Of a stretch of 32,428 nt of DNA, positions 18,348-20,436 are shown in pieces. The DNA lies in contig SHZU01000001.1 in the NCBI GenBank assembly GCA_009692115.1, positions 485,598-518,025 of the forward strand. The letters run 5' to 3'. Origin of the DNA: Gemmatimonadota bacterium (GTDB lineage Bacteria; Gemmatimonadota; Gemmatimonadetes; Gemmatimonadales; GWC2-71-9). The notes beneath the pieces were generated by a model. That model made no database searches and was not told the origin of the DNA. It worked only from the letters and a program-made list of their open reading frames with translations. Numbering within the stretch: the stretch's first letter is position 1; each line of letters begins with the position of its first letter. The position numbers and the translations under genes are program-made.

Positions 18348-18373
18348 TTGGAAGTTGCCCCTCCTGGGCTCGA
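18348..18373 (-). repeat. Displaced copy of the tRNA-Gln 3' end (direct repeat)
   Basis: Twenty-six bases are identical to 18438-18463, exactly 90 bases away. On the minus strand the copy begins in the T-loop (TCGAGC), includes the 3' T-stem and acceptor strand (AGGGGCA) and runs eight bases past the tRNA. The match stops abruptly on both sides. It resembles an attachment-site duplicate left by tRNA-directed integration, or a small partial duplication. Confidence 0.75.
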
Positions 18374-18417: not shown

Positions 18418-18439
18418 AAAGCCGCCTCGCGGCGGCTTT
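18418..18439 (-). terminator. Intrinsic terminator of the tRNA operon
   Basis: A perfect nine-base stem (AAAGCCGCC / GGCGGCTTT) with a four-base loop lies six bases past the tRNA-Gln 3' end. In the minus direction it is followed by the T-rich tail GTTCGTTTCC. Confidence 0.7.
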
Positions 18440-18444
18440 GGAAG

Positions 18445-18517
18445 TTGCCCCTCCTGGGCTCGAACCAGGACTCTTCTGATCCAGAGTCAGACGTGTTGCC
18501 AGTTACACCAAGGGGCA
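18445..18517 (-). tRNA. tRNA-Gln (anticodon CUG)
   Basis: The acceptor strands TGCCCCT and AGGGGCA pair over seven bases. The anticodon arm is TCTGA-CTCTGGA-TCAGA with CTG at positions 34-36. The T arm is CCTGG-TTCGAGC-CCAGG. The discriminator is A and CCA is not encoded. The gene lies seven bases after tRNA-Ala and shares its promoter. Reading CAG only, it implies a separate UUG isoacceptor elsewhere. Confidence 0.95.
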
Positions 18518-18523
18518 ATGATG

Positions 18524-18596
18524 TGGAGCGGAGGGGGATCGAACCCCTGACCTCTGCAGTGCGATTGCAGCGCTCTCCCAACTGAGCTACCGCCCC
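18524..18596 (-). tRNA. tRNA-Ala (anticodon CGC)
   Basis: The acceptor strands GGGGCGG and CCGCTCC pair with the G3-U70 wobble that identifies tRNA-Ala. The anticodon arm is CTGCA-ATCGCAC-TGCAG with CGC at 34-36, and the T arm is AGGGG-TTCGATC-CCCCT. The discriminator is A; CCA is not encoded. It is first in a two-tRNA operon. Confidence 0.95.
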
Positions 18597-18608: not shown

Positions 18609-18637
18609 AAGCTAGTGACCTCGCCCGAACCCGTCAA
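18609..18637 (-). promoter_or_regulatory. Sigma70-type promoter of the tRNA-Ala/tRNA-Gln operon
   Basis: On the minus strand, TTGACG (-35, 18637-18632), a 17-base spacer and TAGCTT (-10, 18614-18609) stand just before tRNA-Ala. Transcription would start about five bases upstream of the mature 5' end. This is the best canonical promoter in the window. Confidence 0.75.
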
Positions 18638-18662: not shown

Positions 18663-18691
18663 TCTATCTCATTGTCTGACAATGCGATAGA
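18663..18691. promoter_or_regulatory. 29-base palindrome resembling a FadR/GntR-type operator
   Basis: The dyad TCTATC-TC-ATTGTC-T-GACAAT-GC-GATAGA is perfect except for two positions on each side of the core. Its centre TTGTCTGACAA fits the TnGTnnnACnA pattern of FadR-subfamily GntR repressors. It lies 26 bases upstream of the tRNA -35 element and 24 bases past the T-run of the candidate small RNA. No GntR gene is nearby, so the role is open. Confidence 0.5.
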
Positions 18692-18714: not shown

Positions 18715-18794
18715 AAAAAAACGAGCGGTGAGTGGGAACCGGTTCGGGGGGAACTTAGTCCTATAGCCCCGTCCCTAGCTCTCCCCTCACCGCT
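18715..18794 (-). terminator. Long hairpin with T7 tail
   Basis: On the minus strand, AGCGGTGAG pairs with CTCACCGCT, extended past one bulged A by GGGA/TCCC. A 43-base loop with a CGGGG/CCCCG stem tops it. The tail is CG followed by TTTTTTT. The loop is larger than in usual intrinsic terminators. Confidence 0.55.
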
Positions 18795-18868
18795 GCTCTT
18801 GGAATGCAACTACCTCCATAGCAATTGTTGGGCCCCAATCGACGTCTGGTTGGCAAAACAATACCCAT
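18715..18868 (-). ncRNA. Candidate leftward small RNA (about 150 nt)
   Basis: No protein frame covers this stretch. Leftward it runs from just past a TATAAA element (18880-18875) to a long hairpin followed by seven Ts at 18721-18715. Base composition is less GC-rich than the surroundings. An inner GGGG/CCCC stem lies in the large loop. It was not matched to 6S, SRP, RNase P or tmRNA by eye: the conserved motifs of SRP RNA and RNase P RNA are absent. It could instead be only a terminator backing up an unseen transcript. Confidence 0.35.
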
Positions 18869-18874
18869 CATACA

Positions 18875-18880
18875 TTTATA
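18875..18880 (-). promoter_or_regulatory. Candidate -10 element for the small RNA
   Basis: TATAAA on the minus strand (five of six consensus bases) is one of very few such hexamers in this GC-rich DNA. No good -35 is seen at 16-18 bases. The same AT-rich patch could serve the rightward photolyase. Confidence 0.3.
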
Positions 18881-19032: not shown

Positions 19033-20436
19033 ATGGTTGACTCGCTCCGAATTCACGCCGCCGAAGAGCCCGGTCCCCGCCGCGCCGGCGAGTTCGTGCT
19101 CTACTGGATGCAGGGCGTCACGATGCGTTCCCGGGCCAACTTCGCCCTCAACTTCGCGATCGAGCAAGCCAACCAACTCGGCCTCCCGATCTTGGTGTAC
19201 CAAGGCCTCCGGCACGACTATCCGTGGGCCAGCGACCGGTTTCACACCTTCATCCTCGAATCGGCCATCGATCTCTATCATGGCTTCGCCGAACGGGGCA
19301 TCCGGTACGCGTTCTACCTCGAAACCCAAACCGAACAGGCCCGCCGCACCCACTCCGAATCACCGCTCACGGCCTTGGGCCGCCGGGCCGCGCTCGTGGT
19401 GACCGACTTCTTCCCGACGTTCATTCAGCCGCGCCAGTTGAAGCGGCTCCGCGACCGACTCGACGCACCCGTGGTGGCCGTTGATTCCGCCACCGTGGTC
19501 CCGCTCCAGTTCCATTCCAAAGAATACCTGGTGGCCCGATCGATTCGGCCGGTGTTGATGGAGGCCCTGCCCCACCATCTCTACCCGGTCGAGAATCCCG
19601 ACCCCCTCATTCGCCGCCCGATCGAGATTCCGTTCGACGAGCCCTTAAACGGAAACAGCACCACCCAGGACATCCAGTCGTTGGTGGCGAGCTGTGACAT
19701 CGACCACGCCGTCGGGCCGGCGTCGGCAACTCCCGGGGGCGAACGCGCCGCCCGAGCCCGGCTCCACGATTTCGTCACTCACGGACTGCCCCGCTACGAC
19801 CAGCGGGGCGACCCGAATGTCGAGGCCACGAGCCGGCTGTCCGCTCACCTTCATTTCGGTACCATCAGCATCCAGGAAGTGCTGCTCACCGCCAGACAAG
19901 CCGGCCCCGGCAGCCAATACGCCACGTTTCTCGATCAGGCCCTCACCTGGCGCGAACTGGCGCACAACCTCGTCTTCCGGAACCCCAAACACCGCACCCT
20001 GGCCGTGGTTCCCAACTGGGCCCGAAAGGAATTGGACGACCACTCCGAAGACCCCCGACCCGCCCTCTACTCGGACCGAGACCTCGAGGCGGGCCGGACT
20101 CACGACGAGTTGTGGAATGCGGCGGAGCGTTCCCTGGTCCACCACGGGGAGATCCACAACTATGTCCGAATGCTCTGGGGCAAGTCAGTCCTGATGTGGA
20201 CGAAGGACGCCGCCGCCGCACTCCGAATTCTCGAACACCTGAATCACAAGTACGCGCTCGACGGCCGGGACCCGAGTTCCTACGGCGGGATTCTTTGGTG
20301 TTTCGGGAAGTACGACCGTCCGTTCTACCGCCGGCCGATCTTCGGCACGGTTCGGTATATGAGCCTGACGGCAGCGGCCAAGAAATTCGATGTCCCGGCC
20401 TATGTGGCCCGGTTTGCGGCGCCCGGAGCCAAATAG
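19033..20436 (+). CDS. phr: Deoxyribodipyrimidine photolyase, class II-like
   Basis: The 467-residue flavoprotein would repair UV-induced cyclobutane pyrimidine dimers using light. The N-terminal antenna-type Rossmann domain reads FVLYWMQGVTMRSRANFALN, with the YWMQ start typical of class II enzymes. The C-terminal FAD domain has SRLSAHLHFGTISIQEV, TWRELAHNLVFRNP, VHHGEIHNYVRMLWGK, LNHKYALDGRDPSSYGGILW and RPIFGTVRYMS, all close to class II patterns. Length fits the class. ATG 19033 has no Shine-Dalgarno; a TAACAT hexamer nine bases upstream suggests a leaderless mRNA. It stands alone, with a 436-base noncoding region upstream. Confidence 0.9.
   Translation: MVDSLRIHAAEEPGPRRAGEFVLYWMQGVTMRSRANFALNFAIEQANQLGLPILVYQGLRHDYPWASDRFHTFILESAIDLYHGFAERGIRYAFYLETQTEQARRTHSESPLTALGRRAALVVTDFFPTFIQPRQLKRLRDRLDAPVVAVDSATVVPLQFHSKEYLVARSIRPVLMEALPHHLYPVENPDPLIRRPIEIPFDEPLNGNSTTQDIQSLVASCDIDHAVGPASATPGGERAARARLHDFVTHGLPRYDQRGDPNVEATSRLSAHLHFGTISIQEVLLTARQAGPGSQYATFLDQALTWRELAHNLVFRNPKHRTLAVVPNWARKELDDHSEDPRPALYSDRDLEAGRTHDELWNAAERSLVHHGEIHNYVRMLWGKSVLMWTKDAAAALRILEHLNHKYALDGRDPSSYGGILWCFGKYDRPFYRRPIFGTVRYMSLTAAAKKFDVPAYVARFAAPGAK

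Follow-up and report, generated by a model that had tools for sequence, protein, structure and literature searches.

A candidate sigma-54-driven small RNA gene beside a tRNA-Ala-tRNA-Gln operon in two genera of Gemmatimonadota

A hairpin on the minus strand lies between a photolyase gene (19033-20436, plus strand) and a pair of tRNA genes, which raises the question of whether it serves one of its neighbours or marks an RNA gene of its own. The window, by which is meant the whole stretch of 32,428 nucleotides analysed, had previously been interpreted from its letters. That sequence-only reading described a hairpin with an internally folded loop and seven Ts, with no gene preceding it on the leftward strand; both descriptions were borne out, the photolyase being on the opposite strand and the tRNAs downstream. 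Its proposal that photolyase and tRNA operon are separated by an independent RNA gene read leftward gains support from relatives, in which the hairpin is conserved; a lack of such conservation was among the observations named as counting against it. The locus is interpreted here as a probable orphan, trans-acting regulatory RNA gene, driven by sigma-54 and with a product of about 95 nt (probability approximately 0.68). The fold, the strand, the promoter motif and the presence of RpoN and its activators are supported by the sequence; transcription, signal and mode of action are what we infer.

A conserved hairpin on the minus strand

18722-18796, minus strand: conserved 75-nt hairpin (z scores, covariance model matches, 87% paired cells)
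18745-18771, minus strand: apical motif CGGGG-CUAUA bulge-GGA-CUAAGU-UCC-CCCCG, near-invariant in six genus members
18715-18721, minus strand: T7 tract, an intrinsic-terminator tail in the window genome only, with weaker, displaced T-rich stretches in relatives

The element is a single continuous hairpin with an internally folded loop, closed by the 9-bp stem AGCGGTGAG/CTCACCGCT (18794-18786 with 18732-18724) and followed directly on its 3' side by the T7 run. The 91-nt stretch containing it yielded a folding energy of -44.4 kcal/mol compared with -28.9 ± 3.3 kcal/mol for dinucleotide shuffles (z = -4.7; 0 of 200 as stable), and a z score of -3.95 was determined for the 75-nt hairpin alone. 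A simple terminator scan omitted the hairpin from its list because the loop exceeds the permitted 8 nt.

A BLAST search of 100 relatives located the element in all five of the other genus genomes examined, hence in 6/6 counting the window genome, and a covariance search added one member of a second genus (G007), giving seven in total. The element is present as a single copy and in all seven occupies an identical site on the strand of tRNA-Ala(CGC)-tRNA-Gln(CTG), preceding these genes by 94-144 nt. The hairpin covariance model, R1, scored 79-90 bits in the six genus members and matched G007 weakly, at 27.4 bits, in the same syntenic place. Model R2, which adds the promoter columns and was built with the G007 sequence included, scored 71.1 bits in that genome and below 35 bits elsewhere among 102 family and 395 phylum genomes. 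Weak covariance matches in other genera (< 39 bits) were discounted; those inspected were GC-rich hairpins of a generic kind that lacked the apical motif. When 84,980 species genomes were searched for the apical pattern, only four genus records were returned besides that of the window itself; four viral contigs with a shorter apical motif gave no score with the model. On these searches the distribution is therefore narrow, covering two genera.

In G104, G130 (genus g14) and G031, each genome contained several long and almost perfectly paired GC-rich hairpins composed of 7-nt units such as GAGCGGT/GAGCGGG (for example at L046:1501-1574 and L044:338-417). Their model scores were weak, and they resemble a family of palindromic repeats.

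Across the seven aligned sequences, 87% of cells paired, compared with 44-55% when the partner was slid. Double changes occurred at five pairs, a count reached by 4 of 500 shuffles, which do not control for relatedness; the hairpins of G001 and G004 are identical, leaving few independent covariation events. A slide of -2 columns also gives five, so the double-change count alone is a weak measure. Stem pairing was nevertheless kept through compensatory changes across the seven genomes: GCGGUGAG/CUCACCGC is replaced by GCGAUGAG/CUCAUCGC in G002, the same stem pair by GCGGUGGG/CCCACCGC in G005, and the apical mini-stem GGA/UCC by GGU/ACC in G007. All six genus members carry the same apical sequence, CGGGGCUAUAGGAC, and differ in the apical motif only at the loop and in the C tract on its 3' side.

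Among the cells in paired columns of the alignment, 11 are G.U and 3 are A.C, and in 7/7 genomes the minus strand gives a more stable fold than the opposite strand; the RNA-encoding strand should therefore be the leftward one. The structured RNA is conserved without a coding gene of its own, and the 1-3 nt insertions and deletions between relatives would be expected to break short reading frames at the element.

Promoter and predicted transcript

18821-18834, minus strand: sigma-54 -24/-12 promoter element GGCCCAACAATTGC (alignment invariance and shuffle test)
18715-18809, minus strand: predicted small RNA of about 95 nt (promoter geometry and T7 run)

All seven genomes possess a sigma-54 -24/-12 element, GGCNC-N6-TGC (GG-N10-GC), upstream of the hairpin, with its GC located 19-28 nt before the outer stem. 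It is the sole conserved block upstream of the hairpin in the seven-genome alignment, the flanks having diverged, and in each case it was the top-scoring site within 150 nt upstream, matching 9 to 11 of 12 consensus positions. The summed score of 67 was not reached by any of 3000 shuffled sets (45.1 ± 2.3). The genome encodes RpoN (sigma-54; 215 bits) and five clear enhancer-binding proteins with strong activator domains. No shared upstream activator site or dyad was found before the element across genomes.

The promoter had earlier been placed at a TATAAA hexamer, which is indeed present in the window at 18880-18875 but is not conserved in relatives. It is therefore unlikely to be the promoter and was rejected as a -10 element; a simple sigma-70 scan found no promoter between 17000 and 20500. 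The sigma-54 site at 18834-18821 is the most likely promoter on present sequence comparisons. The predicted start was placed near 18809, 12 nt downstream of the C in the -12 GC, and the end at the T run. Given this spacing, and a GC lying 19-28 nt before the outer stem, transcription would start shortly before the hairpin, and the length of about 150 nt first proposed is reduced to about 95 nt. A T7 run with a clear intrinsic terminator was found only in the window genome; in relatives the stem is followed by weaker T-rich stretches, with 35.7% T over the first 16 nt and 24.6% beyond them.

Genome G000 as a whole contains only 3 copies of the strong sigma-54 consensus TGGCNCN5TTGCW, compared with 29 for a reversed-pattern control, as if the motif were avoided. 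At least one of these copies (L134:1501) is positioned just ahead of a gene for a putative outer-membrane protein. With 3 sites, fewer than the control, a sigma-54 regulon could not be read from genome-wide strong sites.

Neighbouring genes and alternative explanations

18609-18637, minus strand: sigma-70-type promoter of the tRNA operon, TTGACG-17-TAGCTT (aligned TTGACG...TANNTT)
18523-18596, minus strand: tRNA-Ala(CGC), the constant downstream neighbour in 7/7 genomes
18444-18517, minus strand: tRNA-Gln(CTG), downstream partner of tRNA-Ala

In five genomes the upstream neighbour is photolyase, in divergent orientation. Its place is taken in G002 by an AI-2E-like transporter gene that reads toward the element and in G007 by a different gene, these two being assigned by reading of their translations. 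Since this neighbour varies, the element is not the leader of an upstream gene; a photolyase leader was rejected on the grounds that the element is kept in G002 and G007, where photolyase is not adjacent.

The tRNA linkage represents the one constant neighbour, and for this reason the main rival is a second, sigma-54-dependent promoter with a structured leader belonging to the tRNA-Ala-tRNA-Gln operon. Nitrogen stress would then cause readthrough via the hairpin into the tRNAs, with the hairpin either attenuating transcription or being trimmed. The shared strand and the short distance to the tRNAs in 7/7 genomes, while the other neighbour changes, are consistent with such a leader, as is the lack of a canonical terminator in most relatives, and tRNA-Gln would fit a nitrogen theme. 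In the window, however, the hairpin ends in a T7 intrinsic terminator, and a separate promoter of sigma-70 type serves the tRNA operon: TTGACG-17-TANNTT lies directly upstream of tRNA-Ala in genus members and is only partly kept in G007. The element would thus not be needed for basal tRNA transcription. Moreover, the Ala-Gln pair is retained in most other genomes of the family although the element is absent there, and a strict apical sequence is unexpected in a passive leader. The leader explanation is consequently considered unlikely.

Two further sequence features were observed around the operon. A near-perfect palindrome, TCTATCGCATTGTCAGACAATGAGATAGA, is located at 18663-18691, after the RNA and before the tRNA promoter; most genus members conserve its right half (CAATGAGATAG), and it may be an operator of the tRNA genes. 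The tRNA-Gln 3' end is repeated exactly and in direct orientation over 26 nt (18348-18373 and 18438-18463, 90 bp apart) on either side of a terminator-like hairpin, an arrangement that looks like a tRNA-fragment duplication or an integration scar.

It is very unlikely that the hairpin is a mere transcription terminator or a DNA-level element, such as a repeat or attachment site, with no RNA function. The terminator form in the window would suit such an explanation, as would the many generic long hairpins of relatives that score weakly with the model, but there is no upstream gene to terminate and the element is single copy. Its apex is near-invariant, its G.U pairs are biased to one strand and its promoter is conserved, all of which argue that the hairpin is more than a terminator.

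A divergent housekeeping RNA such as 6S, an option of the sequence-only reading, is scarcely credible: although RF00013 gave no match above cut-off in the window genome and 60 relatives, which leaves the 6S RNA of these 61 Gemmatimonadota genomes unaccounted for, the element is a single continuous hairpin of ~75 nt without a large central bubble, occurs in two genera only and has a sigma-54 promoter. Rfam 15 likewise returned no match at the hairpin, either at gathering score or at relaxed thresholds (E up to 10). The best RF00013 score among the 61 genomes was 29 bits (G082:C1:1168039-1168202), and the 6S RNA of Gemmatimonadota may be missed by this model. We read the element as neither 6S RNA nor tRNA leader; a regulator, the other option offered earlier, appears the better interpretation.

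Possible mode of action and comparison with known small RNAs

As a regulatory RNA gene, the locus would be switched on when a nutrient- or stress-responsive enhancer-binding protein opens sigma-54 RNA polymerase, with a start near 18809. The product would begin with a short 5' leader, continue as a single long hairpin and, in the window genome, finish with a U7 tail at which transcription stops. The outer stem may protect the RNA and assist in ending the transcript, whereas the functional site would be the near-invariant apex, with its 5-nt CUAUA bulge, GGA/UCC mini-stem and CUNAGY loop, contacting either a protein or a short mRNA sequence. Hfq was not detected in the genome, and the 10-nt apical core has no other copy and no perfect complement within the genus, both occurring only at the locus; a perfect antisense target was accordingly rejected. 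These two results favour protein recognition or short imperfect pairing, and recognition by a protein seems slightly more likely than classic antisense pairing. Sequestration of CsrA via GGA was rejected, as GGA is GGU in G007.

A more specific proposal is tentative and rather doubtful as a whole: that two Gemmatimonadota genera share a new class of structured RNA, sigma-54-induced and nutrient-responsive, whose bulged apex (CUAUA bulge, GG(A/U)/(U/A)CC, CUNAGY loop) is bound by a dedicated protein where Hfq is undetected. No report of small RNAs in Gemmatimonadota was found in the literature searched. A conserved RNA with a readable promoter class offers a concrete entry point, in that it indicates the class of inducer (sigma-54 activators) and a predicted 95-nt product, and its strict apical motif could serve as bait, all in a genome where Hfq was not detected.

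The Pxr sRNA of Myxococcus is ~108 nt, intergenic, preceded by a predicted sigma-54 promoter and conserved in one bacterial group; it folds into three stem-loops and is encoded downstream of the regulator nla19 (PMC5568312). The element shares with Pxr the intergenic position, promoter type, restriction to one group and a stem-loop fold with a conserved part, and is set apart, by description, by its one long hairpin, bulged apex and tRNA-adjacent site. NrsZ and CrcZ of Pseudomonas are RpoN-dependent orphan sRNAs of 226 and 407 nt induced by an NtrC-type activator, whose gene they adjoin, and CrcZ acts as an Hfq decoy through A-rich repeats (PMC8395346); the promoter type is common to both and the element, whereas the latter is shorter and occurs in a genome where Hfq is undetected. 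GlmY of enterobacteria is a sigma-54-driven small RNA of the GlmS regulatory cascade (PMC3162934), alike in promoter type, with no sequence relation found (no Rfam match). 6S RNA (RF00013) is also small and free-standing, but the element is shorter, lacks the central bubble, is narrowly distributed and has no covariance match. By these comparisons the element belongs to none of the families of Pxr, NrsZ, CrcZ and GlmY, and resembles all four in the type of promoter from which it would be transcribed.
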